Both the position numbers and the translations under genes were made by a program. The notes below the pieces were generated by a model. That model did not search any database. It was not told where the DNA came from and was given only the letters and a program-made list of their open reading frames with translations. A DNA stretch of 28,370 nucleotides from a virus: positions 1-28,370 of the IMG/VR virus record IMGVR_UViG_3300012920_009192. One strand, given 5' to 3'. Each line of letters begins with the position of its first letter. Positions within the stretch are counted from its first letter, which is position 1. Of this stretch, positions 10,101 to 27,500 are shown piece by piece.

Positions 10101-12415
10101 ACAAGCACTTCATACCACTAAGAGGTTGGGAAGAGGTTTCTGCTTACTACGAGCACTCCAACATGGATGTTAAGAACCTTTTAAACCAAACAATGCCCGC
10201 CATCAGCAGGGGCATGAACACCATGAAGCACAAAATGAGAGCTTCATCGGGTTTACAGGAAGGAACAATGGTTTCCAACCACCTCGCATATGCGTTCGCT
10301 CTAGCGCGACAAGGTATAGTGGAGTCTGAGAAAAACGAGGTCATGCGTTCTTTCTTTGATCTAGTGGCAACTGCACACAAAGACCCTGCCCTCAAAGGCA
10401 TGGCTAAAAATTGGTTCAGCTACACCAAAGGTCTTATGATTACAACTGTCGGAAAAGACGGCAGACCTAGAAAGCAACTAGACCCCCGTTGGAAAGATGA
10501 TCCTAATGTGATCGGCATGAAAATAAACGGTCAAACCGTAGCCATGCGATTACAGGGCGATCGCCTAGACGGAACTAGTTCCGTAGCGCGCGCTCTCAAA
10601 AATTTGGGTGCAGAAAAAACGGGAGCTTTTGTAAGAACCGTAAAGTTTACCACCCGTTGGATGGCTGCGCTACGCACTACACTATCACCCGCATTCACCC
10701 CCGTTAACTTTGTTCGGGATTGGGGCATGGGCTTTTACTCTATTAAAGGGTTGGAAACTGACTTTAAGGAACAAATCGAAAGAGGCGAAATCACTGAACA
10801 AGAGGTGGACGATATAAAGTCAGAAGCTCTTAAAAACCTGTATAATCCGAACATATTGAGGAAGGCTTTCCAAGGAGCGGTACACCACTCTACAGGCGGT
10901 AGGGGCATGGACGTCACCCAAGGCATACAGAAGCTAATAGGCAAAAAATTCACTCCTTCAGCAGAAACTCTCAAATGGTCTGCAATCTTTAAAGACTTTT
11001 CAGACAACGGCGGTAGGATACAGCATTTTGGATTTTCATCGGTACAGAAAACTGCAAGCTCTTTTGGGGCTTCCGTGCGAGAGCTAGACCCTAACGATCC
11101 TCAGAAAATCAAGTCTTTCATAAAAGGCGCGTATGATTTTATGGACACTTCAAGTGGCGCGATTGAAAATTTAATCAGAGTCACGACTTATGACGCTCTC
11201 GTGAGAAAGGGTATCAGTAAGCAAAAAGCTGCGAACATGGCTTTGAACTTGACCACCAACTTTACACGAAAGGGGGAGTGGACTACTGCGCTAAACGGTA
11301 TGTACTTGTTCTTCAACGCGGGCGTGCAGGGCAGTTACAAGGTTTTGAGCACCGCGTACCGCGCACCAAAAGCTAGAAAGTTCTTAGGAGGAGCAGTGTT
11401 GCTAGGCTTTATGAACTCTTTCATAAACCGCATACTGTCAGACGAAGACGAGGAGTTGGAAGCTTCATCGTGGGACAGAGTCAGCCCGTACAGTAAAACC
11501 CATAATCTACACTTTTTCTTACCCTCTTTCGGTGAGAAGCACGCAAAAATACCTACACCTTACGGAATAAACGTATTCACATCTGCGGGCACTCTTTTAG
11601 AAAACGTTGTTTTCGGCGACATGAAAGTTGGCGACGCAGCGATGACGTGGGGCTCTACTGCGCTAGAAAGCTTTAGTCCGATAGGCGGATCTTCTATGGC
11701 ATCAGCCTTGACGCCCACCGTGCTTCAACCCATCACGGACTTGGGCATGAATATGGATTACAAAGGTGCGCCCATTTACAAAGAAGATCATTTTAACAAA
11801 TCCACTCCCGACTCGTCACTACATTGGTCTAGCACTTCGGAACTGTCCAAAAGCATAGCCCAAGGATTGAATAAACTCACGGGAGGAGACTTGGAAAGGG
11901 CGGGAGGCATAGACATCTCTCCCGACACCATTGATTATATGGCTAATCATATTTTCGGCGGTTTGGGAGGCTTCTTAACCCGTTCTGCGGATTTCGGAGC
12001 TAAGATCGTTAGCGATGAGAAAGAAGCGCCTAGCCTTAACGATATTCCCATTGTACGTAGATTTTTAGGCGACGAGACGGCTTATTACGATACGGAAAAG
12101 TTCTACAAGCTTATAAACATGACCACAAACTCACAGGCACGCATAGATCGCTACCGCAAGGAAGCCTCGTCGCCCGAAGAGCTTAGAGCCGTCTTACTGT
12201 ATGAAACTCCGCGAGCCAAGTTACATAAATCGTATACTCGAAACATACAGCCAAAAATTGCAAAAATTCGTAAAGACATAGAAGCAATCAGATCAAACAA
12301 AAACATGACAGGTCAGCAGAAGCACGATCAGACGGAACTTTTGAAGAGACGACGCAAAGTGATTATGAACCAACATCTAAAACAAGCAAAACGCTTGGGA
12401 ATAGACGATTATTGA
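1118..12415 (+). CDS. Giant 3765-residue polyvalent-type phage protein with metallopeptidase, GNAT-like, HDFFGH and LPD38-like regions
   Basis: One uninterrupted frame of 3765 codons. Domains seen by eye: an acidic, coiled-coil-prone N-terminus (1-200); an Ala/Gly-rich hydrophobic stretch (about 480-680); a zincin-type HEVGH at 927-931 with a possible third ligand E1012; a Lys/Pro/Thr-rich linker (about 1130-1200); a GNAT-like block (about 1455-1565, RRKGAAGKELDRIL then WYASKGF); a domain with HDFFGH at 1857-1862 followed by GEENAWDAH and RGQNSWVN; a possible HhH-GPD glycosylase-like region (about 2225-2590, with IDTHA near 2479 and GGYHIYLEAYRRAA near 2518); and a C-terminal third resembling LPD38 of polyvalent proteins (FVRDWGMG near 3198, NAGVQGSYK near 3400, SWDRVSPYSKTHNL near 3451). 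Linker motifs of DD-T-L-x-A-R type start at 1578, 1691, 1968, 2157, 2599 and 2658. Phage polyvalent proteins are thought to be packaged and injected; applying that here is inference. It lies just upstream of the portal operon. Confidence 0.85.
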   Translation: MDVTSNIDLLDDEEEEKKSPLDTQTVPPSLSNVFSSRQELDTAISNFVPDSYYKDARDRVSKTRELLKSSEDRMKPLLQEMGTFRDELNDTANDIPKENRVPFWADLEIEDADNYINEINNEFQNFEDTKDDNGFLIFGGQGAERSARALPLRGKWDGIVSKYSNAKADNEIIRQQHEEATAYRDEFTKRYLTMSDPQRRALQDLWEAQNPDVDETTKARARSRVSSTAGYDPYAGSTLDILGYASKAAQTRRSIHSQSNYQAELQREYDLAREAEKRGLRFTKNGYFAGYPMNVSEDEAKILSTHKNNPDKAIADFGEDAVDKARFSEVFNATVLDYRTAHNNVMMAESSGDAKKLEKAEAEFALAKITMREALIKGNDMQMLGELVGRMQSKQEYGLMSNLMAEIGKEAQTDSQASAFENGAKMGLLQTMQSWSALAQDIGLTSDKDHVAKQAEYAAQMRIAPTPLRLGDIQSAGTAMDFATEMVATMGTQYGASLPAGLAAGYGTKKMTQFGVNALEKLSKSSVLKRVPLLRGALQFSNELLKTKAGKRLLGAMPVFTGGAATSYVANYGGAYMEAAQAVKTETDPEGIDLMNQEAHLRLLHNPEAVAQVKRGARGKAGAISAIEGLTFFAGGLTSQAMLKMGAKGTVIPTIARGVVDGGMGSASEVAGLYAMHQTMGMEQPFLSFEKNAKGEYEFGGYLAENMEEVIMEAIGGPIVDVYQTGLSKAFTYTGKKYNEAQGAIKDTLADKNFNKQLESMAQEVLDAEAGEESSHRGSVIAEDAVTETEYGSTGTIDMGQGKKYTTHTAKDDESLIGLLTDRLGEGALGKRETKFLDSLFTALQEAGGAEVKENWRNMRIVFRNDYAETTPKGEAQPPMQYSQNANTLFINTDAKSNYGSVTNKQVDVETGKVRDERSSLLANIVHEVGHFSERYMVGDARVKEMFEKIDGNFKSKSDGKNQGMFMAFLEYNTEAKKRALAGSPDAWAKERDAFYAQYESDDNFARVAKSEWWAMQFSRVAQKRTEGMDKGIVGMIKNLYKALRKPYRDMMGNAKLSNAEVDAELSEMFGFRPETSPTNTVNESGETEAPDPQKLAENAADLASPTVEPVKEEQTDAEPDAFDQDQELAIPEPKKKKKAKDPVSTEPTTAEVPKSTEPPKKTKTPAKKTPKKAKRKPTPEEQLARQTKTKKTAALKRIVTAAKSTPEQVDAALREARDRVRNDPNSNAQKVLDAYNAKTEREKKRQEKLDQIKRNEEYATMAYQDPKKALGKNSKGSPLLEDNAYFNINKKGEVIGIQDPKTGTWVGIEPASKRGRKTKPSEQMQLDLLDARAARNEKITKVNKNLRAKQAELVKAMDVAFEKNNNKPNDETRALFGEYQKVTDRLKKVSPYAFGAKRVMKKTERIQRYRAKTGKVPILDGEGQDNTPDSKQLAKALGGSQQIQSGMETGHNYTTKSGVEVTFNDNANPMYFNADTKDEVQLGGDVELNFIGVPEQKNRRKGAAGKELDRILAKADERDMSIQLLIDPYSTGMAEGGMTARQLRKWYASKGFIFQGSNPNGYRPRVSEDPPKLVTTDDTLDARDTITSSDDSKAVRQVFSEKQSARIDTLAGKLLPFELRRKLAEAPIAKTEAEVLGKEVWDSYRQAAEAQIRDTTFKQKVLTEIVKRKQPNASPHQRARKVMEIVEDSDDTLNARGTVKGAFYSRRVPKIKEIMVKASSNPQPPVNRKIVKVDVENSQRIADLFDAGVNAPNDPKVREAYVAMARETEKQYEVMVEAGYKVEMYPDDGEPYKSSPEMLDDVIDNKHMWIFGTESGYGEEGITEAQRAVDPLLAKTKYKDVNGKTMLVNDLFRAVHDFFGHGERSNSFGALGEENAWDAHSQMFSPLARRAMTTETRGQNSWVNFGKHIRRKDGTMPKKGDPDYKPLADRPFAEQKSFLLPDDVVFQQWKDEQAEVDDGLGFIELEDDTLDARGTFQRYEDPKDKKPKAKKPKVKKLKLTLKDKYDIDKYEFEIKETKFDKNHIDRGWFMLDGRFMNIGENYHTDALVRLAKANLDHPHIQHMLEYKIENMDFDYGKPDDAALERQAIEQLSYDEAMLAGMIRVEIQGKRIFLEGRGTLPPNEVRVAVELAAIERNKEVYWESYGTRAPAKKLFPDDSWDVLGARPTNWVSKVSDEHDALRVGTAKLGSTRKPIPTTANDNLTKERVPRKVFEKQMQQLNDLKHLPASIRRLRNPDKKYEAVVEFFKDNLLALHDKFDQRDRSRATHWYDGARTLAENISKKFTSTKEEQAAGVIAALSPQNDWFQNVAQGEQLVAVWNNDKNTPITETLVRDTLESMVRRTTLSTSVTKGKTKEEKDALLALAKEGRREILESVLNTTIGKIQDPKQQAWAARLMAETRFGRNYQNLNPEGLSIGMAINDGGDLSNHAWGGAGDIAKALSALKDGSLENITEMLGNKHKVRSFFNNIIAPNSPFGDVTIDTHAVAAAHLLPMAASSLAVSQNFGTNMAGSPAQGINGGYHIYLEAYRRAARERDIQPRQMQSITWEAVRLLYPKEEKGSKLAQMQNVWNNNEDVTATRAELLSQEIGRPIWSLDGQSDVLGARAPSVLREKVGQKANVGTSPRDRQRQASRRGSRINGIELDPREDPTGFNRRIFDDTLGARGLYATTPDKFFANARATLSASQQVFLDDSLSIVERLKQTVEIFGDPLRRKVQDKMLPVRRLIDVLEEAKGGTFKDDLQTYVKHENYHGRTGAALTNHSEDFELPIAQSVVDNQINVEVLDDVMHLRHAQERNAVNREQNKVVTVSYRRAGRLVTKSFKGYGADAKARAFSTGFKVSWVNTFADGTTETKTKEFAEQAKAEAFAKKKLKRSQKPNWPRQGNVKLVKGRLTGRTISSKSTVEAGSGYTDDTAKFALALNKKAIEQLHKKGEINDDQLERITRMIDEVKKNPNGLKAYMDTANIVDKMNRASLERQYKSGLIAKKDFDRIRKAYKHFIPLRGWEEVSAYYEHSNMDVKNLLNQTMPAISRGMNTMKHKMRASSGLQEGTMVSNHLAYAFALARQGIVESEKNEVMRSFFDLVATAHKDPALKGMAKNWFSYTKGLMITTVGKDGRPRKQLDPRWKDDPNVIGMKINGQTVAMRLQGDRLDGTSSVARALKNLGAEKTGAFVRTVKFTTRWMAALRTTLSPAFTPVNFVRDWGMGFYSIKGLETDFKEQIERGEITEQEVDDIKSEALKNLYNPNILRKAFQGAVHHSTGGRGMDVTQGIQKLIGKKFTPSAETLKWSAIFKDFSDNGGRIQHFGFSSVQKTASSFGASVRELDPNDPQKIKSFIKGAYDFMDTSSGAIENLIRVTTYDALVRKGISKQKAANMALNLTTNFTRKGEWTTALNGMYLFFNAGVQGSYKVLSTAYRAPKARKFLGGAVLLGFMNSFINRILSDEDEELEASSWDRVSPYSKTHNLHFFLPSFGEKHAKIPTPYGINVFTSAGTLLENVVFGDMKVGDAAMTWGSTALESFSPIGGSSMASALTPTVLQPITDLGMNMDYKGAPIYKEDHFNKSTPDSSLHWSSTSELSKSIAQGLNKLTGGDLERAGGIDISPDTIDYMANHIFGGLGGFLTRSADFGAKIVSDEKEAPSLNDIPIVRRFLGDETAYYDTEKFYKLINMTTNSQARIDRYRKEASSPEELRAVLLYETPRAKLHKSYTRNIQPKIAKIRKDIEAIRSNKNMTGQQKHDQTELLKRRRKVIMNQHLKQAKRLGIDDY
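8835..9047 (+). CDS. Possible overprinted 70-residue protein inside the giant gene (+1 frame)
   Basis: Within the giant gene, the +1 frame holds an ORF starting at ATG 8835 or ATG 8841 (M-K-M-S-Q-Q-Q) and ending at TAG 9045-9047. Its sequence looks like a folded helical protein (for example DRAMSLEHELRPYYEKRLG followed by KKLTLEQVHAID). The giant frame over 8936-9050 is an unusual Arg/Ser/Gln-rich stretch that looks more like out-of-frame translation. However, the giant frame carries the recurring DVLGAR linker at about 8915-8932, so that frame is also real. The start has only a weak purine run (GGAAT) upstream. Two explanations are open: a true overprinted gene, or a chance open frame opposite a disordered linker. 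I cannot separate them without homologues. Confidence 0.25.
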   Translation: MKMSQQQEPNSSVKKLVDQYGVSMDRAMSLEHELRPYYEKRLGKKLTLEQVHAIDSDKPLDGDQESTELS

Positions 12416-12669: not shown

Positions 12670-14676
12670 ATGAACACTACAAGCCTTGTATTAAATGAAA
12701 AACAAGAGGCAAAACTCTTAGAATATGTAGAAAAGAGGTTAGCTTCTTTGGAAGATGACAACAGGGATCGCATATTAAATGACGAGCACTCTTGGCAAGT
12801 GTATCACAATGAGCGCGCAGACAGGGAACAGCCCGACAGTATTTTTGAAAAATCAAATGTTTCCGTTCCCTTGACCACATTGGTAGTGGATCACTTCGTG
12901 ACTCGTGCGGAAGATGACATAACGGGACAGACGCCTTACGTAAAGTTTGATGCGCAAGGGTCTTCCGACATGAAGCAGGCACAGGATTTTGACCGATACT
13001 TCAATTGGAAACTTGAGACAAAAGGTAAAAACCGTCGCCTGTTGGAAGATGCGTATTTACAGGCTTTTGTTCAGCGCGCAGCGATTCTCAAAGCTACGTA
13101 CAAGGCAGACATTGCACAGTACACGGATCGCGAAGCACGAGTCTTGTACGCCATAGGCTCTTCTGAACCCATTGTTTTAGAAAGTATCGGATTAATAATT
13201 GAGGGTGAGGCGGAGTTCGTTCAAATAATGAACCCCGCAACACAGATGCCCCAAATGGTTTTACAAAACGACCCTAGTTTCGTTTTTGACCCCATGCAAC
13301 ACGAGTTCCGCGAGTATACCAAAGGTATCGATATGCAGACAGTGCGCTATAAAGGGCCTAAGACAGCTTTAGTAGATTATGACCGCTTTTTAGCACCAAA
13401 TGACGTAGTGTCGTTAGAAGACGCGGACTTTCTAGCAGAAAAATACGACAAACCTTTGGCATGGGTGGAATCAATGTTCTTGCAACGCGATTTTTATTCG
13501 TATGACGACTACAAGAACATGGTCAAAGACAAGACCACGGCAGAACCAAAGACCGATGGGTATCGAGAACGTGAAAACAGAGAAAACTTAGGCTTCGATC
13601 GAGACGATCCAAAACTAGAAATCATCGAGTGTTGGATCAAAAGAGACGTTCTAGGCACAGGAGTTCCTCAAGAATTCTGTTTCTTTTACGACCCTCTCTG
13701 CAAGAAAGCCATCTACTACGAGTATGTGCAAAAGATAACCCCCGACAAAGCTATTCCATACTCCATAGTGAGCATAAACAGGGACAGAAACAGGTGGTGG
13801 GGCCCGTCTCTCCCCGAACGCATATCAACTTTTCAAGAGTTTATAGACAAACAGTTCAACTCGCAGGCTTTCCGCAATGAAATAAGCGCCAATCCTGTGC
13901 TAGGAGCTAACCCACAAGCGCTAGAAGAAGAACCCGATGATGTAGAGATTCATGCAGGCAAAGTGTTTACTTTGAAAGATCAGTACAAAATGCAGGACTT
14001 TCTCTCCGCCATTGAGATACCCAATCAAGACAACAAGACGCAGAACTTGATCGACTTTGTTTTCAGCGTAGTTCAGTTATGGTTAGGCGTGAGCAATCTA
14101 GCGCAGGGCGATATGCAAGTGCTACAACCCGCCACTACAGCCACAGGCGTCGAGGCTACTTTGAGAGAAGCTTCCAAGATCGGCAGACGGTGGTTGCGTA
14201 GGATCGTAGAGCAGTTTGAAGAGCATCTTACCAAGTTAGTCGCCATAGAGTGCGCTACTTTGGATCAGAAAGAAGTTTTTGAATACATGGAAGGAGATGT
14301 GAGAACGTTTGCGGAGATGAATCCCCGCGATCTTCAAAACCTTTCCACCAACGTCACAATAGAAGTTTCACAGGAACAGGGACAAAGGCAGATTGAAAGA
14401 GCCGACCTCGCACTCAAATCTATGGACAGATACTTTGCGTATCCACCCGAAATGCGCGCTTTTGTGAAGCCGATGATTCGCGAGATTATAAAAGCTTTGG
14501 GCTATGAGAACGCAGACGAGTATCTGCCCGACCAAGCACCCGATGTTCCTAGAGACGAGGAGGGAATGCCCAACGACAAGGCGTTACAAAATTCGGGAAT
14601 GTCTGATGCCGTTCGGGGGAAAGGTAACTCCAATCAACAAGGAGCAAATCAGTACACGGAAGGAAGGGGAGCGTAA
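12670..14676 (+). CDS. Portal protein
   Basis: A 668-residue protein of the size and pattern of podovirus-type portals, the dodecameric ring at the capsid vertex through which DNA is packaged and ejected. Recognisable portal features include the central block NRDRNRWWGPSLPERI (about residues 370-388), followed by a long helical EFIDKQFNSQAFRNE stretch, and a TTATGVEATLREASK block (about 487-500) leading into the C-terminal crown helices (RRWLRRIVEQFEEHLTKL). The last 45 residues are a low-complexity tail rich in Asn, Gln, Gly and Asp. The ATG at 12670 follows a T-rich leader with no clear Shine-Dalgarno site. The stop overlaps the next start (TAATG at 14674-14678). The scaffold and capsid genes downstream fit a head operon. 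I am confident of the function, less so of the exact portal subfamily. Confidence 0.9.
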   Translation: MNTTSLVLNEKQEAKLLEYVEKRLASLEDDNRDRILNDEHSWQVYHNERADREQPDSIFEKSNVSVPLTTLVVDHFVTRAEDDITGQTPYVKFDAQGSSDMKQAQDFDRYFNWKLETKGKNRRLLEDAYLQAFVQRAAILKATYKADIAQYTDREARVLYAIGSSEPIVLESIGLIIEGEAEFVQIMNPATQMPQMVLQNDPSFVFDPMQHEFREYTKGIDMQTVRYKGPKTALVDYDRFLAPNDVVSLEDADFLAEKYDKPLAWVESMFLQRDFYSYDDYKNMVKDKTTAEPKTDGYRERENRENLGFDRDDPKLEIIECWIKRDVLGTGVPQEFCFFYDPLCKKAIYYEYVQKITPDKAIPYSIVSINRDRNRWWGPSLPERISTFQEFIDKQFNSQAFRNEISANPVLGANPQALEEEPDDVEIHAGKVFTLKDQYKMQDFLSAIEIPNQDNKTQNLIDFVFSVVQLWLGVSNLAQGDMQVLQPATTATGVEATLREASKIGRRWLRRIVEQFEEHLTKLVAIECATLDQKEVFEYMEGDVRTFAEMNPRDLQNLSTNVTIEVSQEQGQRQIERADLALKSMDRYFAYPPEMRAFVKPMIREIIKALGYENADEYLPDQAPDVPRDEEGMPNDKALQNSGMSDAVRGKGNSNQQGANQYTEGRGA

Positions 14677-15260: not shown

Positions 15261-16118
15261 ATGAGAACCGTAAAAATAGAAGATTTACCATTAACCACGA
15301 ATGTCGCCCCTACTGATGAGATACTTGTAATACAAAACGGAGAGGTTAAGCGTGCGCTAGTTTCCACTATCACGCAACTTGATGTTTCTTCGCCTAGCTC
15401 CTCTAGTTTAAGCTCGCCTTCTAATTCGTCTAGCGCATCATCATCTTCATCAGCTTACTCAACATCATTTTCATCTGCGAGCTCGTCGCCTTCGTCGTCA
15501 TCTCTATCGGACTCTTCGTCGGCTTCCTCTTCATCGAGCGGAAGTAGTTCTCCATCATCTTCATCGAGCCCTAGTAGTAGCGGATCATCTTCAGCGAGCC
15601 CTAGTGGATCATCTTCAGCGAGCCCTAGTGGGTCAGCTTCAGCGATGAGCACTAGCGGATCAGCCTCCTCAACTTCAGAGTCCATATGGAACGGAATACT
15701 TCTCAATGAAGACCTAGACGATTTGGACAGTGATGGCGTGCCCGACAATTGGACAGTCGAAGGCGGTACTTTGGACGCCTATGAAATGGGTAATGGCAAC
15801 GTGAAGGGCGACAATGGCGACGTTACCATAAAAGCAGTTTTACAACCGTCAGTGGGACTCACTTCGGGCACATATACGGTCACAGCTACTCGCGTTGACA
15901 GCGGTTCGGGAGGCGTTCAACTACGGACTAACGCACCCGTTACGTGGTCGGGAGCGACCAATCAAAACGGGCACACACAAGATTTCGCATGGTCGCCCGC
16001 CATAAACCAAATTAGTTCCTTTACTTTCACGGTAGGCATTACTCCTATTACCGAACTAACTGTGAACACGGGCAACGGTGGGCATATAATCTCATCCATA
16101 ACCATAGTAGAAGATTGA
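15261..16118 (+). CDS. Fibre-like virion protein: anchor, serine-rich linker, beta-sandwich-like C-terminal domain
   Basis: A 285-residue, three-part protein. Residues 1-40 (TVKIEDLPLTTNVAPTDEIL then VIQNGEVKR) resemble a short N-terminal module common on phage fibres and decoration proteins. Residues 42-141 are a ~100-residue linker made almost only of Ser with Pro, Ala and Gly, encoded by mixed Ser codons. From 142 on is a beta-rich domain that starts with the calcium-binding-type motif DLDSDGVPDNW and continues with alternating strands (TVTATRVDSGSGGVQLRT), like carbohydrate-binding beta-sandwiches. It probably displays a binding domain on the virion. That reading is inferred from architecture. 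It shares the serine-linker plan with the genes at 16933-17891 and 21544-28341. The stop overlaps the next gene's TTG start. Confidence 0.7.
   Translation: MRTVKIEDLPLTTNVAPTDEILVIQNGEVKRALVSTITQLDVSSPSSSSLSSPSNSSSASSSSSAYSTSFSSASSSPSSSSLSDSSSASSSSSGSSSPSSSSSPSSSGSSSASPSGSSSASPSGSASAMSTSGSASSTSESIWNGILLNEDLDDLDSDGVPDNWTVEGGTLDAYEMGNGNVKGDNGDVTIKAVLQPSVGLTSGTYTVTATRVDSGSGGVQLRTNAPVTWSGATNQNGHTQDFAWSPAINQISSFTFTVGITPITELTVNTGNGGHIISSITIVED
15582..15665 (+). repeat. 24-bp tandem repeat in the serine linker
   Basis: Two identical 24-bp units (15582-15605 and 15606-15629), each encoding G-S-S-S-A-S-P-S, followed by a degenerate third. Linker length here could change by slippage or recombination without breaking the frame. 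Confidence 0.85.
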
Positions 16119-16706: not shown

Positions 16707-16889
16707 ATGCCACAAGGACAAAAAATGAAAGACAGGCTAATGAAGGTAAAAGACTCATTGCCAAAACTTAAAAGTAAGCCAAAAGCCAAAAAGCCATATA
16801 AGGCTAAAATGGGCGATTGGACGGAAAGCAAGATGCCAAAAGCTATGTATTCCAAAAAGGGAACGGGTCTAAACCCTTCTTACAAGTAA
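16707..16889 (+). CDS. 60-residue lysine-rich protein
   Basis: I choose ATG 16707, two bases after the stop of the 38-residue gene; an upstream TTG at 16665 would overlap that gene almost fully and gives a poor N-terminus. The product is strongly basic, with Lys at about a quarter of positions (SLPKLKSKPKAKKPYKAK), then the more conserved-looking MGDWTESKMPKAMYSKKG. No membrane segment or enzyme motif is present. Like the DUF6321 protein upstream, it may bind DNA or an acidic partner in the head; this is inference from charge and position. The gene ends on a TAA that is also the first three bases of the TAATACAACCGCTTG element. Confidence 0.6.
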   Translation: MPQGQKMKDRLMKVKDSLPKLKSKPKAKKPYKAKMGDWTESKMPKAMYSKKGTGLNPSYK

Positions 16890-16907
16890 TACAACCGCTT
16901 GCAAATA
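16887..16907 (+). promoter_or_regulatory. Copy of the intergenic motif TAATACAACCGCTTG
   Basis: The element begins on the stop codon of the 60-residue gene and is identical over 15 bases to the site at 17889. It precedes the frameshifted fibre-like gene by about 30 bases; a GAGGA ribosome binding site follows at 16921-16925. It is a candidate promoter or RNA-processing site. The resemblance of TAATACAAC to the start of T7-type promoters may be chance. Confidence 0.45.
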
Positions 16908-16932: not shown

Positions 16933-17343
16933 ATGACGACACCTAAAGACTTATTCGGAGCGAGTTATTCTGCCGATAGCAGTTCCATAACTATAGCATT
17001 GGCTGATTTGTTGCCTGCGGGCGAGCTAACCGCTTTAGAAGCCGACGCCAACAACGGCAACGGTTTGAAAGTAGCGTACGCTTTGATTAAAACTTTTTCC
17101 GACAAGCTTGCGGGTCTGAGTGACCCCCCTACGAGAGTATCATCTTTTGAAGGTTCGTACTCCACCAACGCTGACGGCACGGTTTCTCGCACATACACAC
17201 AGACTTTTGACTTTTCTGTAGGCGATGTAGCGGACGAGCCCGACGTTTCTTCGCCGTCCGCTTCTGAGTCCGATTCTGCTTCTGTTTCTGTTTCTGTTTC
17301 TGAATCCGCTTCTGAATCTTCTTCCCCTTACGGGGGAAACTAA
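16933..17343 (+). CDS. Fibre-like protein, short form and N-terminal part of a -1 frameshift product
   Basis: The unshifted product is 136 residues: a compact N-terminal domain (about 1-100, containing ALADLLPAGELTALEADANN and a beta-like RTYTQTFDFSVGDV) followed by the first 30 or so residues of a Ser-rich linker, ending YGGN and TAA. A Shine-Dalgarno GAGGA sits 7 bases before the ATG. The linker is cut in mid-course: the same Ser-rich composition continues in the -1 frame directly past the stop. A GGGAAAC heptamer at 17334-17340 (codons GGA-AAC), a 6-base spacer and a hairpin at 17347-17377 form a standard -1 frameshift signal. The shifted product would be 319 residues. The N-terminal domain probably attaches to the virion; I do not recognise its family. 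Confidence 0.8.
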   Translation: MTTPKDLFGASYSADSSSITIALADLLPAGELTALEADANNGNGLKVAYALIKTFSDKLAGLSDPPTRVSSFEGSYSTNADGTVSRTYTQTFDFSVGDVADEPDVSSPSASESDSASVSVSVSESASESSSPYGGN

Positions 17344-17377
17344 GTAGCCCCTCTAGCTCAGAGAGCGCTAGTGGGGC
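17334..17377 (+). promoter_or_regulatory. Programmed -1 ribosomal frameshift signal
   Basis: Slippery heptamer G-GGA-AAC (17334-17340) is in the X-XXY-YYZ register of the upstream gene and directly precedes its TAA. After the 6-base spacer TAAGTA comes a hairpin: GCCCCTCTAGC (17347-17357), a 9-base loop, and GCTAGTGGGGC (17367-17377), giving 10 pairs with one T-T mismatch. GGGAAAC is an established -1 slippery sequence, and the spacer falls in the usual 5-9 base range. A second hairpin, TTCCCC/GGGGAA (17322-17327 with 17333-17338), overlaps the slippery site itself. Confidence 0.75.
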
Positions 17378-17891
17378 AGATTCATCCGAGCCTTCATCAC
17401 CAAGTTCATCAAATTCAGACTCTTCAGCACCGAGCTCTTCAGCATCGAGCTCTTCAGCACCTAGCTCTTCAGCACCTAGCTCTTCAGCACCTAGCTCTTC
17501 GCCAAGTAGTTCAGAGCCTACGGGGTTTGCTACCGAAGACGTGGGCAGAACCTTTACTGCATTGCAAACTAAACCCGCTCGCGGTTTGGTGCAGGGCACG
17601 CAGTATACAATTACTGAAGTCCCCAACGAAATTGATGCAACACACGACGGAGATTGCGCTTATGCAGTAGAGGGGTATTACCCGCTTTACCTCGACCAAG
17701 CCACCGCAGAAGCCAATTCTCCATCATCGCAGTCGCATACTCATACGTTTAACGGCGACAATAATACTTACTATATGCCATCGGGCGGAGTAGAAAACAC
17801 CGATTTCTACCACGGCACATATACAGGCAATGCGTGTCTCGGCCCATACATCAATTTTAACGCAAGAGGTCAGTATTGGGATTGGGATTAA
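17340..17891 (+). CDS. C-terminal part of the frameshifted fibre-like protein
   Basis: This frame is open from 17316 and is entered at CTA 17340-17342 after a -1 slip. It adds 183 residues: the rest of the Ser-rich linker (about 60 residues) and a C-terminal domain with the pattern AYAVEGYYPLYLDQATAEAN, then SQSHTHTFNG and YYMPSGG. I have the impression of similar GYYPLY, HTHTFNG and YYMP blocks in other phage fibre proteins, probably a displayed receptor-binding domain. There is no ATG, GTG or TTG in this frame before GTG 17541, which already lies inside the folded domain and has no ribosome binding site. An independent gene from 17541 (116 residues) is therefore the weaker reading. The gene ends on the TAA that starts the next TAATACAACCGCTTG element. 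Confidence 0.75.
   Translation, partial: LSSPSSSESASGADSSEPSSPSSSNSDSSAPSSSASSSSAPSSSAPSSSAPSSSPSSSEPTGFATEDVGRTFTALQTKPARGLVQGTQYTITEVPNEIDATHDGDCAYAVEGYYPLYLDQATAEANSPSSQSHTHTFNGDNNTYYMPSGGVENTDFYHGTYTGNACLGPYINFNARGQYWDWD
17421..17495 (+). repeat. 15-bp tandem repeat in the serine linker (5 copies)
   Basis: Five head-to-tail 15-bp units, each encoding a five-residue S-S-A-P-S-type unit; the last three (17451-17495) are identical (TCTTCAGCACCTAGC). This is the coding linker of the frameshifted protein and could vary in length between strains without changing frame. Confidence 0.9.
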
Positions 17892-17931
17892 TACAACCGC
17901 TTGAAATACATTTAGTATTATTGCTATATCA
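17889..17931 (+). promoter_or_regulatory. Copy of the intergenic motif with possible promoter, upstream of scaffold
   Basis: TAATACAACCGCTTG begins on the stop of the frameshifted gene. It runs into TTGAAA, which could be a -35 box with TATATC about 18 bases downstream as a weak -10. That would place the transcript start almost at the scaffold ATG (17937), with no Shine-Dalgarno site visible. It is either a sigma70-like promoter or part of a phage-specific element. Confidence 0.4.
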
Positions 17932-17936
17932 ATTTA

Positions 17937-18914
17937 ATGACAGAGCCTAAATCGCAGGGCGCGGGAGACCCGTCCGACGAACAGGAGCTCGATCCTAGCG
18001 AGATGACCGACGAAGAACTTCGCAGTTATTTCACAGGAGAAGCAGTCGGCGAGGAGACTCCCGAAAGCGACGAGCCCGAAACCGAAACGCAAGAGGATAC
18101 TGAGGTCGGTAACACCACCGAAGAGCCTACCGAAACGGATCAAGAGACTGAAGACCGTCTTTCTAAGATGCGTGTTCGTCCGAGAGACGACTTGGATCAA
18201 CAAATTCTAGACTTGTATAAGTCGGAAGGATTTCAAGGAACTCTCGCAGACGCTTCCGCAGTTATTAGGGGAGACGCTCCCGTAGCTCCAAAACAAGAGC
18301 AAACGGAAGCACCGCCCGAAAAAGATGGAATTCAAGAGCAACTAGCGCAGATTGACGCCAAGGTCAAAGAGCTCAACGAAAAAGCCCACACTGCGTCCGA
18401 AGATTTGGACACAGCGGAAGCTTTTAAGTTACAGCAGGAGATCATGGAGCAAAGCATTCTGAAAGTTAAGCTCGAAAGTCAGCTTGAACGTGAAGCGGAG
18501 CGTCAAGAAGCGGACTTGAACGCTGCTTATCACCAAAAAGCAGTGGCAAGCAAAGAGAAGGTTTTTAAAAGGTATCCCGTTCTACAAGATGCCGAAAGCA
18601 TACAACGTAAACAGTTTGATGCTTTCATCGCTGAAAAGCAGAACGATCCCGATTATCAAGCTATCTTTCAAAGTCCAAAGTGGGTCGAAATAATGGCGAA
18701 TGAGTTTGCCGAAACTGTAGACATTTCACCGCCTAGCGCGGAGGTCTCCATAGACAATCTCAATCGTCCACCAAAAACGAACACTAAGGTTCTGACAAGT
18801 GCATCAAACACGTCAACAGTTTCAAAACAACCAAAAATAACACCACAGGGGGTTAGGGACAATATGCATCGCTTAGACCGCGACACACTTTACAGTATGT
18901 TAGGTCAAGAGTGA
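17937..18914 (+). CDS. Scaffold (capsid assembly) protein
   Basis: A 325-residue protein immediately upstream of the major capsid gene, the usual place of the scaffold that shapes the procapsid and then leaves it. The first ~90 residues are highly acidic and disordered (Glu, Asp, Thr, Pro-rich, for example ESDEPETETQEDTEVG). Residues about 130-205 form a long charged coiled coil (QEQLAQIDAKVKELNEKA and LQQEIMEQSILKVKLESQL). The C-terminus (about 270-325) is more basic (NRPPKTNTKVL, NMHRLDRDTLYSML) and would be the capsid-binding end by analogy with other scaffolds. No protease motif is visible. The function rests on composition, helical pattern and position. Confidence 0.8.
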   Translation: MTEPKSQGAGDPSDEQELDPSEMTDEELRSYFTGEAVGEETPESDEPETETQEDTEVGNTTEEPTETDQETEDRLSKMRVRPRDDLDQQILDLYKSEGFQGTLADASAVIRGDAPVAPKQEQTEAPPEKDGIQEQLAQIDAKVKELNEKAHTASEDLDTAEAFKLQQEIMEQSILKVKLESQLEREAERQEADLNAAYHQKAVASKEKVFKRYPVLQDAESIQRKQFDAFIAEKQNDPDYQAIFQSPKWVEIMANEFAETVDISPPSAEVSIDNLNRPPKTNTKVLTSASNTSTVSKQPKITPQGVRDNMHRLDRDTLYSMLGQE

Positions 18915-18970: not shown

Positions 18971-20467
18971 ATGGCAGTATCTAATTCAAACATCGGAGCA
19001 GGCACATTCGGCTCTCCATCGAACGGTTCAGTACGCGAACTTCCAGGGGCCACTGATTGGGCAGGACAGGACGCAACACTTAAACCCGAAATTTGGTCGG
19101 AGCTCGTTCGTCGGGACACCAAAGAAAAGAATGTATTCAAGGATTTCGTAGGTGGCGAAGGCGCAAATCAGCCCGTCGTAACCAAGCGCGATCTCGCAGC
19201 AGGCGGAAAGACCAAAGTTACTTTCACCTCCACCACTCCCATTCGCGGACAAGGTGTAATCGGTGAGAATCAACTGAAGGGTAATGAAGACAACCTCCGC
19301 TTCGGAACACACTCCGTTGAGGTTGACCTCATTCGTCACGCTGTTGCTTACACTCAAGTTCTTCAGCTTCTTCGTTTTACGGGCAAGACCCTCGACCAAC
19401 TCTCCGCTGAGTTGATGTCCGATTGGGCTGCTCGCAAAATGCAGGACGACATTATGATTTCGTTCCGTAACGAAGCTTTAGCGCAGACCAATGACGCAGC
19501 TACATGGTTGGCTGACACGGACAACTTGTCCGCTACATCAGCCTTGTTGACCACCGACGAAATCGAGGAGTCCAAACTTCGTTTGATCGGTTCGGGAGCA
19601 CAGCCAATGTCAATTGATTCGGATTATTCGGGAGCAGACGTACCTCAGTACTTGGCTTTCGCACCCGCGAACGTAATGAACAACCTCCGTTCTGACACTA
19701 CTTACGCCAATGCGCTACAGTACGCTGCGCAACGTTCCACCACGGATCACCCATACTTCAAGGGAACTCTTCCCGCTTGGGAAAACAACGTAATCTACAG
19801 CCACAACATCATTTTTGATACGGCTGAAGGTCGCCAAGGTTCTCCTCTGCTTCCTGTTGCGTTCCTCGGAGACCCCATCGCAGGGCAGGCTAACGCCAAC
19901 TACGCGGGTGACATCGATGGCGGTGGACAGTACGGCAACAATGGGTTGGATTACTTCGCCAACTTCTTGGGTTATCAGTGGAAGTTTACTTCCTACACCT
20001 CATTGCCCGCTGACTCTAACCGTGAATATCACTTGACCATCTACGACACCAAGACTCACAAGTACAATGTCGTGAAGTACAAGGCAGGCGATGTGTCCGC
20101 TGACGGTTCTACGATCACTCGCGCGAACGGAAACCTCACTGTTGTTGCAAGCTCTTCTAACGGTAACAACAACGTCGAGGCAGTTGGCAAAGGATCGATC
20201 ATTTATCAGTCCTACGCCAACGGAAAGCCAATGGGCTTTGCCTTGCACATGGGCGGAAACGCCATGTACTACGCGGAAGGATCGATTAGTTCCGAGCCTA
20301 TCTACCACTACGATGACTTCGCAACCTCTAGCGGAAGAGCGCACCTCACCGCAACGGGTGTTCAGTCAGTTCGTGGTCTTGCTCCATTCAAGGACAGCTT
20401 GGGTAGAATGCCTAACTTCAACGTGATCGCCTGTCAGGCGAACATCGTCGGAGTGACCGCAGTCTAA
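18971..20467 (+). CDS. Major capsid protein, N4-gp56 family
   Basis: A 498-residue protein that forms the capsid shell. The early region VRELPGATDWAGQDATLKPE, the loop TPIRGQGVIGENQLKGNED (from about residue 88) and HSVEVDLIRHAVAY followed by a long helix (LDQLSAELMSDWAARKMQDD) match the N4-gp56 type of major capsid proteins. The C-terminus (PNFNVIACQANIVGVTAV) is also typical in style. The ATG at 18971 is preceded by a strong Shine-Dalgarno sequence (AGGAGGGG), the best in the window. Codon use favours C-ending codons (TTC, AAC, CTC, ATC) more than neighbouring genes, as expected for the most highly expressed gene. It follows the scaffold and is terminated by an intrinsic terminator, so it probably has a high-abundance transcript end. 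Confidence 0.9.
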   Translation: MAVSNSNIGAGTFGSPSNGSVRELPGATDWAGQDATLKPEIWSELVRRDTKEKNVFKDFVGGEGANQPVVTKRDLAAGGKTKVTFTSTTPIRGQGVIGENQLKGNEDNLRFGTHSVEVDLIRHAVAYTQVLQLLRFTGKTLDQLSAELMSDWAARKMQDDIMISFRNEALAQTNDAATWLADTDNLSATSALLTTDEIEESKLRLIGSGAQPMSIDSDYSGADVPQYLAFAPANVMNNLRSDTTYANALQYAAQRSTTDHPYFKGTLPAWENNVIYSHNIIFDTAEGRQGSPLLPVAFLGDPIAGQANANYAGDIDGGGQYGNNGLDYFANFLGYQWKFTSYTSLPADSNREYHLTIYDTKTHKYNVVKYKAGDVSADGSTITRANGNLTVVASSSNGNNNVEAVGKGSIIYQSYANGKPMGFALHMGGNAMYYAEGSISSEPIYHYDDFATSSGRAHLTATGVQSVRGLAPFKDSLGRMPNFNVIACQANIVGVTAV

Positions 20468-21543: not shown

Positions 21544-24500
21544 ATGGCTAACGAATACATTCGTCCCGTCGGCAAACCTATTGTCGAAAAGAGTACAAAC
21601 GGTCTTCGTAAGATCACCCGTCGCTATGTGGTTCACGGGCCTTCTAGCGGAGCGATTACCGTAGAAGACAGAGTCTTCCTACCGTTTTGCACTGTAGACG
21701 AAGAGTACACGGAAGCTTATCTAGTTCAACAGAAGTTGGAAGGTTCGCAAGACGCGAGCCAAGACGTTTTAGTTCGCACTTATTTGGAGGTCAATGACCT
21801 ACCCGCAGAAATTGATCCACCCGATTATGTAAGAGACGGCGTGGGGCGTGTGCGTGTTTCAAAAAGCTATATAGTAAAAAGCCCATACAATTCAGCTTGG
21901 TCGGAAGCTCGTGTGGGTACGGAAACTTGGACAACTCCCAATGGGGACGAAACCATACTCGCAAAGGTTACTTTCGATGACAAAACTTGCTACGCCGAGT
22001 ACAAAGAAGATTACTACCAAATAGGCATTATTTCTTTTAAAGAAGAGGTTAAGCATAACGGTAAGCTTAAAATCAGAACCTACAGGTCTATAGGACTTGA
22101 GACCGCTCAAGACTTCCTAGACGAGGCTAATTTAGGTACGGATTGGGTGTTAGTCGAGAATATGTCGGGAGCGGGCTCTGCTGACTACCAATACGGGGGT
22201 TTGGAGGTCAAAACATGGACATTGGTAAAAGGAGCGGGTCGCATTGTCTTGGAACAGGAAGACATGGGCTCTGCCCAAATAACTACCGAAGTTATCATTG
22301 TTCCCGACGAAGAATCTTACGCACCGTACAGCGACATACCGCCCAACCAAGTTTACGAAACTAAAGTCGAGGACAAGCAGGGCTACGATTTGTGGACAAT
22401 AAGTGGCGTTGTGGGGCAGGGTGAGATTGACCGAAAACACGAAGTTCGATTTAACGGTGCGCTAGAAATAATCACCATTAAGAATATTGGTCAGCAAAGC
22501 ACTCCGCCTGCGGGTTTTGTGCGCGTCTCCGAGAAGCATGACCAAAGTGGGCGCTATGATATTTTTACGGATGTTTACGTTAAGGGGCTTGGGCTAGTTT
22601 CTGAGGAAGAGGAAGATAAGGGAACTGCTCAAATCACCACACAGGTGTGGATTACGCCCAATGGAGGCAATCCACCGCACACCATACCCGCTAATCAAAT
22701 TTTTGAGACTAGAGTCGAAGAAAAAGACGGCTACGAGATACACACAATCCGAGGAGTAATCGGACAAGGTGAAATCGAGAGGCGTGAGGAAACTAAGCAC
22801 AACGGCGCGTTATCTATAGTAACGATAAAGAATATTGGACAACAGTCCGTTCCTCCTGCGGGGTATGTAAGAGTTTCCGAAAATTTTGATCAATCGGGAC
22901 GCTTTGACATTTTTACTGATGTTTATGTAAAAGGGCAGGGGCTGATCAGCACTTCCGAAGAAGATAAAGGAACTGCTCAGATTACCACCGAAGTTCACAT
23001 TGTTCCCAATGGCGGAGCTCCCGCGTCCGCAATCCCTGTAGCGCAAGTTTTTCAAACTAGAGTAGAGGAGAAAGACGGCTACGAAATACACACCATCAGC
23101 GGTGTAGTAGGGTCGGGTGAAATAGAGAGACGCGAAGAGACTAAGCACAACGGCGCACTCTCAATCATTACCATTAAGAATATTGGTCAACAGAGCCCCG
23201 TTCCTGCGGGTTATGTGCGTGTTTCGCAAAATTACGACCAATCGGGCAATTTTGATATTTTTACAGATGTATATGTGCGTGGACAGGGTTTGATCACCAC
23301 GGAAGAGGAAGACAAAGGCACGGCGCAACTAGCCACGGAAGTTCACATAGTTCCAAATGGCGGAGCGCCTGTATCTAACATTCCGCCCAATCAAGTTTAC
23401 GAGACAAAAGTTGACGAGCGAGATGGTTATGAAATCCACACGATTAGAGGTGTGGTGGGAGCAGGGGAAATCGACAGAAAACTAGAAATTAAGCACAACG
23501 GTGCGCTAGAAGTTCTGACAATACAAAACATTGGACAGCAAAGTCCTATACCCGTGGGCTATGTTAGAATTTCCGAAAAATTAGACCAATCGGGAAGGTT
23601 TGACATATATACGGATGTGTACGCAAAGGGTGCGGGACTTGTTTCCGTGTCTGAAGAAGAAAAAGGTCTTGCAACAATAACCACCGAAGTATGGCTAACA
23701 GAAAACGGGGGAAATCCCCTTACAACGATCCCCCAAGGTCAAATCTACCGAACAACCACGGAAGAAAAGGACGGGTACGAAATCCACACGATTGTGGGAG
23801 TGCAGGGACAGGGAGAAATCGACAGGAAGCTAGAGACGAGGAAACAGGGTGCGCTAGAGATACTGACGATTCAGAGCATTGGAGCGAAAGCCCCGAATCA
23901 AGTTGGTTATACGCGCGTCAGCGAAAGAAACGACAAAAGCGGAAATTTTGAGATATTTACGGACGTTTTCGTAAAGGGAGCGGGTAGGATACAAACATCC
24001 AAGACTACAGGTTCGGGAAACACGATTCGCGAAACAGTAACCTACCTCACGGCAGACGATGAGCCTGTCCCGCAAGGGTGTGTCACCGCCCAAGACATTG
24101 AGGACAATGACGGCTATGTTCTGTACAAGAAAACGTACACATCTTCGGCAGGGGTTGGTGCGCTAGTTACATCAACACGGACTGATCAATATGGTATTTT
24201 TTACCCAACGGTCACAGAAACCGCCAACAATCCTCCAAACTATCCGAATAGCGTAGCAATAACCGCGAAGCGCGAAACACGACTCAATTGCTTGGACGGT
24301 CAGAATGCGATCACGGAATACGAGTACACATTTGCAGTCCTCCCTGCCGATCTTGAAGTGTCAAGAAGTGTCAAGACATCGGGCAATGTGAAAACCACGG
24401 ACATTGTTACTATCAACAATCCCCCACAGAATAACGGATGTATCTTAGCCGAATCGGACAGAGATTTGTATGATGTCGATGGAGTAGCCTACGCTACCAT

Positions 24501-27500
24501 ATATTCAAGGACTTTTGTTGAGGGAACGGGGGCAATCTCTGAGAGCGTCTCTACCTCAAACGGAATTACTAAAAGAGTCAAGAAGACTGTCGGTAACGTA
24601 CCTCCCGCAGGCGGTTGCGTGGTTTCAAAAAACGAAGAACCAATCGTAGACATAGACGGCAATGACTGCGCTATAGTTTATACTTATGCCTTTTTGGAAG
24701 TTCAGCAGGGTGAGTTGGAGCGCACAGTATCTTCTAGCGGTGGCGTCACCAAAACCCGAATACGTCAAGCGGGACAAGCTCCCAATGCTCAAGGGTGTCT
24801 AGTTGCCAAAAAAGAGGAAGAGATAAAAGACATTAACGGGCAAGTTTGCTTCGTAATATACGACCACACATACGCCGACGGACAGGGAGAAGTTAGTCGA
24901 TCAGTTTCTAGTAGCGGTGGCATAACCAAGACTACCATTAAGTCAATTAAAGTCCCTCCCGCAGGGCAGGGCTGTCTAGTGGCGAAAGATGAGGAAGAAA
25001 TTCAAGGCATCAACGGGGCGTGCTACACCATTTACACATACACTTTTGCCGAAGGTGCGGGAGAGTTGGAGCGATCGACTTCCTCTAGCGGAGGCATCAC
25101 TAAAACAAGAATTAAAACAATAGGCGCAGCGCCCGCAGGGCAAGGATGCATTGTCGGTCGAAGTGAAGAAGAAATAAAAGGAGTAAACGGTCGGTGCTTC
25201 ACGATATACGATTACACGTTTGCAAGCGGTCAAGGAGAGTTAGAACGGACTGTATCTTCTAGCGCAGGCATGACTCGCACTCGCATCAAAAGTTTGGGAC
25301 AAGCGCCACAGGGACAGGGATGCGTAGTTTCAAGAGGCGAGCAAACTACAAAAGACGCGAACGGACAAGACTGCTTGACCGTATACACTTATGAATTTCT
25401 AGATGCAGGCGGGGGCGAGATGGAGAGAAGCACTAGAACTAGCGGAGGTCTCCAAATACAGCGAATAAAATCCGTAGGACAAGCCCCCGCAGGGCAGGGT
25501 TGTTTAACATCAAAATCAGAAGAAGAGATAAAGGATGCGAACGGACAGGTTTGCACCACGATATACACTTACGAGTTCACTTCGGGACAGGGAGAGCTAG
25601 ACAGATCGGTCACAACTTCGGACGGGGTTACGCTGACGAAAGTTAAACAGTTTGGAGGCGTTCCCGCAGGGCAATGCGTTACGCAAAGTTCTAGCGAAAA
25701 CGTGTATGATATAAACGGAGGCGTTTGCGACACCATAGAAACTAGAACATTCATGGGTTGGCAAGAGGGGATTTTGTCAAAAACGACAAAGACAGGCCCC
25801 GAAAATATGCTCATTACTACCATTGTCAGCACCAACCAAGGAGCAGGCGCTCCCGCAGGAGGTTGCGTAATGGGCGAGGGCACGAAAGAGTTCAGAGACA
25901 TAGACGGCAATATTTGCTTTACGCGCTACACCACTACATACGGGACAGCGCCTGCAAATGGTGAAATAGAAAGAACTACTCGCAGTGGTGGCGGTCAGTC
26001 GATCACAACGATTAAAGCAGTTGGTCAAGCTCCCGCAGGGCCTGGGGGCGCGTGTCAAACGGGCGAAAGTAAAAAAGACATCATGGATATGGACGGAAAC
26101 GTTTGTTTCTCCGTATACACCGCAGAGTTTACGCAAGGCACGGGCATGATGGATGATAAAGCCACAACACGGTCGGACGGCGGTTTGGAAATACGCTCTA
26201 GAGCGCGGGGGCAAGTTCCTCTCCCACCCACAAACAATGCGTGCGTTTTAGGCAAAGCCGAAGAAGCTGTTTACGATAAAGACGGAAATCAGTGTGACAC
26301 GATATACACTTGGACTTACCTCGTCCCACCTAGCGGACATATAGTGTCCGAGACATCCAATACGAATAGCAACGGCATCACCGTAACTACGATTGTGGGG
26401 GCAAACATTGTGCCCCTTCCGCCCAATGGAAACTCTTGCTTAACGGGCGAGGGCGAAAAGGTCGTTAACGATATGGACGGCAACGAGTGTTACACAATAT
26501 ACACTAGAGAGTTTTCTTCGGGCAGTGGAATTATTCGGGAAAGTGTACGTTCTTCGGGAGGTCTTACTTACCGCACGATTAAAAGCGTTGGTAACCAACC
26601 TCCCCAAGCAAACGGCGGGTGCTTGACTGCAAAATCCGAAATTCAGCACAAAAGTAAGGACGGTAGTGTTTGCTACACGGTCTATGAATACGAGTTTCTA
26701 GCGCAGACGACTTATAAAGTATTAGAACAAAGCGTAGATTTGGGAAGTAACGGTTTGAAAAAAACTACTACCAAAACTTTGGAAGCTCCATACCAAGGGC
26801 AGGGCTGTAAGGTAGGAGAAGGTTCTTACGACATCCAAGGCGTAAACGGTAAGTGCGCTACAGTGTACACAACGCAACACGTGGAAGGCATGGGCGAATA
26901 CGATCGAGACGTTTCTCCAAGAACGGGATATTCCATTGTAACTATCAAATCAATCGGACAACCTCCGCAACCTCCTAACAACCAAAGGTGTTTGTTGAGC
27001 AGTTCTGAAGTTGATGTGCAGGGAATAGATGGCTCTTGCTTTAAGAAATATAACTACCAATACATTGTAGGCGAATATGGCAAACTGCTAAGTACGACTT
27101 CTCGTTGGAGCGAGGGCGTTCTATACACAACAAAAAGACAAATGGATCAAGCTCCCGCAGGGCAGGGCTGTAAGATAGGGGAATCTACGGACGAAATAAT
27201 CGGAGAGAATGGGGTCTGCATTACCATATATGAAACTACTTTTGCAGAAGGGCAGGGCGAAGTCGATCGAAGCGTTACGACAAGAGACGGTATAGTGTTT
27301 ACGACCATAAAAAGCATTGGTCAACCTCCGCAAGGAGATGGGTGTCTTTGGTCTAAGGGAGAGACTACTAGGCGAGGTATGGACGGCGCTAGTTGTTACA
27401 CTATATACAATTACACTTTCGCAAAAGGCTACGGAGAAGTGAGTCGAACAACGAGAACCGATGGTTGCGGAATCACGTACACGACCATCGAATCAATAGA

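Follow-up and report, generated by a model that had tools for sequence, protein, structure and literature searches.

In a virus record of 28,370 bases, the whole of which was analysed and is termed the window below, a small gene ahead of the capsid gene very probably uses hairpin-stimulated -1 programmed ribosomal frameshifting (PRF) at G_GGA_AAC, by which a minority of the translations of a 136-aa protein would be turned into a 319-aa form with a linker and an accessory domain. Comparison of the sequences demonstrates the signal, its conservation in a related phage, the exchange of the domain behind it and the presence of the core gene alone in another relative, and we infer that frameshifting occurs, as a minority event. 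The frameshift itself is of a known kind. What is new, and goes beyond an earlier sequence-only reading of this DNA, is that the displayed domain is exchangeable with the signal kept, and that a nearly identical twin element recurs in prophages of Paenibacillaceae.

The frameshift site and its gene neighbourhood

The 0-frame ORF (16933..17343, + strand), predicted to give the majority product, encodes 136 aa, namely a core domain (about residues 1-103) and the start of a Ser-rich linker, which is read directly from the sequence in frame 0 at 17246..17340 (+). The end of the ORF reads ..GGG GGA AAC TAA, with the slippery heptamer G_GGA_AAC in register (X XXY YYZ) at 17334..17340 (+), and the stop codon TAA together with the remainder of the 6-nt spacer TAAGTA occupies 17341..17346 (+). 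Next comes a putative stimulatory hairpin (17347..17377, +), whose 11-nt arms, GCCCCTCTAGC at 17347-17357 and GCTAGTGGGGC at 17367-17377, form 10 pairs with one T-T mismatch around a 9-nt loop (17358-17366); its folding energy is -19.6 kcal/mol with a z of -2.6, lower than for shuffled sequences. Starting about seven codons 5' of the slip, the -1 frame has no stop until 17889-17891, and its extension of 183 aa (17340..17891, +) continues the Ser-rich linker and then enters a C-terminal domain (about 17511-17888), which gives a long form of 319 aa (136 + 183) with the predicted junction-spanning peptide ..SPYGGNLSSPSS... The -1 frame has its first ATG, GTG or TTG at 17541, a GTG within the domain that no clear Shine-Dalgarno sequence precedes. 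The ORFs, heptamer, spacer and hairpin had been placed correctly to the base by the sequence-only reading, as a direct check of the sequence confirmed, and the same is true of the linker split over two frames, the stop right after the in-register heptamer, the lack of a start until inside the next domain, and the lengths of 136 and 319 residues.

In the proposed mechanism, tandem -1 slippage at G_GGA_AAC would take place in a minority of ribosomes, aided by the hairpin 6 nt downstream. Most ribosomes would stop at the TAA adjoining the heptamer and yield the short 136-aa form, while the shifted ribosomes would yield the 319-aa form with the Ser-rich linker and the C-terminal accessory domain. 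Through the long form, accessory domains would probably be placed on the particle in limited number. It should be noted that G_GGA_AAC is less shift-prone than G_GGA_AAG in E. coli according to tRNA arguments (PMC5009743), which was counted against the best explanation. Rfam gave no match, and a scan of the locus for sigma-70 promoters and terminators gave nothing above chance.

The gene order of the window is that of a podophage-type structural block. A large LPD38 polyvalent protein of 3765 aa, with LPD38 and DUF7178 domains (window 1118-12415), is followed by a portal of the SU10 type (12670-14676), which matches the Pfam family SU10_portal, and then by two small genes, a Ser-linked protein (15261-16118), a lipoprotein-like gene and another small gene. 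The core gene at 16933 comes next, then a scaffold-like gene (17937-18914), the major head (capsid) protein (18971-20467; phrog_334, PF13252), a tail gene 3' of it, and a tandem-repeat protein of 2265 aa with many repeats (21544-28341). The core gene is thus two genes upstream of the capsid gene, between lysis-type genes and the scaffold and major capsid genes. Its product is probably structural, and this position suggests that both forms enter the virion, where the domain would face outward and probably bind the host surface or matrix. The term fibre-like, applied to the protein earlier, goes beyond the evidence; the core is a protein of about 103 aa encoded in the structural gene block. It has no match in Pfam, PHROGs, NCBIfam or PDB sequences, its AlphaFold model is weak (pLDDT 51), and cultured relatives of the core protein or the portal were not found in the phage collection searched.

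Some other features of this block were also observed. The box AATACAACCGCTTG is present at window 16889-16902 and 17890-17903, just past a stop codon and immediately upstream of the core gene and the scaffold-like gene, respectively, and equivalents occur upstream of both genes in L001/L146 and in L147 (relatives described below), that is, in all three phages, with one L147 copy reading AATGCAACCGCTTG. It is a candidate phage promoter or processing site. In the second Ser-linked protein (15261-16118), the C-terminal domain is in one frame. Its counterparts differ in length, with only 79 aa at L001:4641-4880 and 328 aa at L147:2984-3970; therefore, accessory domains appear to come and go there too. 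The 2265-aa repeat protein ends in a poly-Ser tail (..SSSSS..VRQGNPNY), which its L001 homolog lacks.

Relatives with and without the signal

L001 is an IMG/VR contig of 67.8 kb from a separate metagenome assembly, whose major head protein is 82% identical to that of the window. Its core gene (L001:5721-6092) is 73% identical overall, and the N-terminal residues, about 103 in number, align throughout, whereas the Ser linkers of the two phages differ in sequence and length and are unalignable. The signal of L001 reads GGGAAACTAAGTAGCCC[T]TCTAG...CTAGTGGGGC, with the heptamer (L001:6083-6089), the 0-frame stop, the 6-nt spacer (identical to that of the window) and the stem all kept in the same frame; the stem shows one C-G to U-G change and the loop is rewritten. 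The hairpin folds at -15.1 kcal/mol with a z of -2.9, and past the signal the -1 frame stays open over 270 aa. The signal is consequently a conserved island between diverged linkers. That the same element is conserved in the same frame in L001 indicates that it is not due to chance, and the alignment with relatives that had been proposed for the heptamer and hairpin is in this respect favourable. It makes -1 PRF that adds a C-terminal domain, as first proposed, the best reading of the locus. The genomes with both the core gene and the signal are two in number, the window and L001. A pseudoknot between the loop and a downstream GCTCTT had been seen by eye in the window, and was dropped since it is not conserved in L001.

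The same comparison bears on three other explanations of the break. An assembly or sequencing error, or a true indel, could have divided a single gene in two, for five Gs stand in a row at 17332-17336 of the window and one more would fuse the frames. However, the break has an identical position in L001, which comes from another metagenome and has no more than three Gs there, and the same motif is the site of the break in more than 20 distinct Paenibacillaceae elements (described below), isolate genomes included. Because the conserved signal island recurs in L001, an indel in one assembly cannot explain the break, and this origin is regarded as extremely improbable. The G5A3 run of the window could also favour transcriptional slippage, rather than ribosomal frameshifting, as the source of the long form, but the heptamer region of L001 is G3A3 only, without a long homopolymer and short for polymerase slippage, and a conserved hairpin at ribosomal spacing fits PRF; the probability left to slippage is negligible. 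Thirdly, the -1 ORF may be a separate gene unfused to the core, with a start of its own or with termination-reinitiation at the TAA, which is a stop within the overlap. Non-standard starts (ATT and CTG, CTA not being one) are possible by sequence, but there is no ATG, GTG or TTG between the last -1 stop and the GTG at 17541, the Ser linker runs on smoothly over the junction in two phages, and a separate gene would need no conserved heptamer and hairpin. We consider a separate gene very unlikely.

The -1 domains of the two phages are dissimilar. That of L001 is LamG-like; it matches a virion structural PHROG (E 5e-22) and resembles the LamG-like regions of cyanophage proteins (31% over 98%). 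For the window domain (..HTHTFNGDNNTYYMPSGG..YHGTY..), the searches gave no significant homolog or family match, a 50-aa piece has weak hits to Salinibacter phages only (E 0.2), and the structure model has a pLDDT of 31. As judged from the two sequences, the cargo domain is exchanged between the window and L001 while the signal stays.

A more distant phage, L147, whose major head protein is 58% identical, carries a core gene (L147:5328-5693, 54% identical) that stands alone and ends ..GDIADEA, without linker, signal or extension. This core gene alone suggests the 136-aa product as the basic subunit, with the linker and domain as an accessory reached by frameshifting. Could the -1 domain instead be a decaying or unused remnant, with the short form alone being made? 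The core-alone gene of L147 and the lack of a significant homolog for the window domain would agree with such a remnant, whereas the open -1 frame spans 183 aa in the window and, in L001, 270 aa with an intact LamG-like domain, and the signal is conserved but its flanks are not. A remnant is therefore highly improbable in our judgement, and frameshifting to an accessory domain is preferred.

Twin elements in Paenibacillaceae prophages

When viral and genome collections were searched for the pattern GGGAAACTNAGTAGCC, the matches comprised the window type and a coherent group of prophages in Paenibacillus, Cohnella and Gorillibacterium. In these prophages, an ORF of about 450-590 codons ends GGA AAC TGA, and the -1 frame encodes a peptidoglycan hydrolase. 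The cargo is an SLT domain in six loci (L004, L018, L024, L141, L163 and L249), a glucosaminidase in three (L037, L017 and L089) and a VgrG3-C/GH46-like domain in L207, and the spacers are TGAGTA, TGAGCA, TGACTA, TGAATA or TGAAAA. With a covariance model of the element, 11 of 250 Paenibacillaceae genomes gave a match; ten of these were inspected and all ten have the same 0-frame stop and -1 lysin frame, while the eleventh, L272, matched model positions 7-46 only and was missed by the inspection pattern. As these sequences indicate, the signal stays and the cargo changes in the Paenibacillaceae prophages too. The same type of signal at a clear 0/-1 junction, with a -1 SLT or glucosaminidase domain conserved over many genomes, supports the mechanism proposed for the window.

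The two kinds of locus share GGGAAACTRAG.AGCCCC ... GCTAGTGGGGC, the stop right after the heptamer, an exchangeable -1 domain and an LPD38 protein, but the Paenibacillaceae carrier, a protein of about 550 aa, is unrelated, as is its cargo (SLT, glucosaminidase, GH46/VgrG3-C-like), and the hosts are Gram-positive. Cultured relatives of the Paenibacillus protein of about 550 aa were not found in the phage collection searched, and a literature search found no published description of this protein and lysin element.

How alike the signals are was compared position by position in Python, with the heptamer and the stem base left out, as MAFFT misregistered stems with short loops. The window element agrees with the nearest Paenibacillaceae elements at 11/12 positions on the 5' side and 9/9 on the 3' side, that is, at 20 of 21 free positions, and L001 agrees at 10/12 and 8/9, respectively, the nearest match being picked separately for each half. 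In 20,000 random draws, neither 11/12 nor 9/9 nor a sum of 19 was ever reached. Since the 5' spacer belonged to the first search pattern, only the 3' half of this likeness is free of selection by the search. Both of the compared linkers are rich in Ser, Ala, Gly and Pro.

A scan with an unconstrained spacer, GGGAAAC N6 GCCCC..GGGGC, showed this architecture to be a general one and served as the null set for functional likeness. Among the matches listed, at least about 20 other junctions resemble gene pairs of the tail assembly chaperone (TAC) type, with varied spacers. For the 21 other junctions among the matches listed, the sum is at most 16, reached by L207, which is itself a Paenibacillus-type gene, and the next is 13. 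Over 20 elements, one stem pair shows A-U to G-C changes and one a C-G to U-G change. The stem base GCCCC/GGGGC hardly varies and was partly fixed by some of the search patterns; consequently, the support from covariation is thin.

The frameshift signal and a short linker may constitute a transferable cassette, or 'socket', that was moved between unrelated phages and joined to unrelated structural proteins, with accessory domains swapped behind it at a fixed low dose, a reading that we hold with somewhat less confidence than doubt. The phages concerned would be a podophage with a probably Gram-negative host and the Paenibacillaceae prophages, and its cargo would comprise LamG-like, beta, SLT, glucosaminidase and GH46-like domains; we offer this assignment just as tentatively. 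Common ancestry of the window and Paenibacillaceae cassettes is plausible, although we lean slightly against it. The LPD38 protein is common to both phage types (26% over 337 residues, E 4e-9), which makes it quite conceivable that their ancestors exchanged genes.

In addition, the 3765-aa polyvalent protein of the window is distantly like a 1214-aa protein adjoining the frameshifted gene in the Paenibacillus locus L037. A possible further junction, GGGAAACTGAGCAGCCCCTCC..GAGGGGC, was seen at L129:738-1906 (the same element occurs in L139), where a 318-aa ORF ends shortly before a prohead-protease-like gene. In the -1 frame of this junction an ATG lies upstream, so that no frameshift would be needed.

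Comparison with known systems

A tail assembly chaperone is ruled out by gene context and family searches, despite the common signal architecture. GGGAAAC, six spacer bases and a GCCCC..GGGGC hairpin are present in many TAC-like pairs (L126, L131, L148, L154, L160, L177, L205 and others), where the spacer of exactly six arises because six was fixed by the search pattern and other spacings were not sampled. In their spacers and loops, the TAC-like pairs among the matches listed agree with the Paenibacillaceae set at no more than 13 of the 21 free positions, whereas the window agrees at 20. In long-tailed phages, the gene for the G-like protein is upstream of the tape measure gene, and to our knowledge neither G nor GT is present in the virion. 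The window, in contrast, has a podophage-type order with the core before the scaffold and major capsid, and no family match. The heptamer itself is known from g-t of HCTV-1, which uses G_GGA_AAC (PMC5009743).

Frameshifting in a display protein had been called unusual by the sequence-only reading, which is too strong, since PRF-extended virion proteins are known (PMC5009743, PMC6669499, PMC6316719, PMC7881722). Such extensions are made in T7/T3 gene 10, Lactobacillus A2 and Listeria A118/A500/PSA (PMC5009743), and the minor capsid protein of phiEco32-like phages arises by a frameshift at GGGAAAG (PMC7881722). T7/T3 10A/10B and the phiEco32/SU10-like phages resemble the window in that a gene of a podophage structural block has a -1 shift near its end that gives a minority C-terminal extension (PMC5009743, PMC7881722). 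As in the 10A/10B type, the short and long forms of the window, predicted from sequence alone, would share an N-terminal core, to which the long form would add a C-terminal domain. However, in those phages the major capsid protein is extended, whereas the window has a core of about 103 aa, a long Ser linker and a swapped domain. A homolog of the major capsid 10A/10B is also ruled out, as the extended protein is not the major capsid, for which the window has a separate gene.

Few phage structural proteins are known in which frameshifting doses an accessory domain, and the present loci would add to them two virus groups, uncultivated or prophage, and two unrelated carrier genes. With a short element defined by its sequence, it is also easy to look for virion genes that are split in this way and stay hidden because annotation pipelines end them at the stop.

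Closest in logic are the proteins in which a stop and a recoding signal dose an exchangeable accessory domain on a virion protein. These include phage virion proteins with PRF-appended Ig-like domains (Fraser et al., 2006, as cited in PMC5009743), SPP1 gp17.1/gp17.1*, present at 3:1 in tails (PMC6316719), and TpeX of the 936 phages with carbohydrate-binding modules (PMC6669499). The logic is the same as in T7 10A/10B, SPP1 gp17.1* and TpeX, which makes the window less unusual than had been held. As to Ig-like cargo, the window domain has no family match and that of L001 is LamG-like, not Ig. The known Ig-like and carbohydrate-binding extensions belong to proteins of the tail tube or capsid, with +1 shifts in several cases, whereas in the window and its relative the signal is kept and the domain replaced. 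According to a review, frameshifting for such domains reflects their chance landing out of frame (PMC5009743). The signal retained here while the cargo changes argues, on the contrary, that the low dose itself may be selected.
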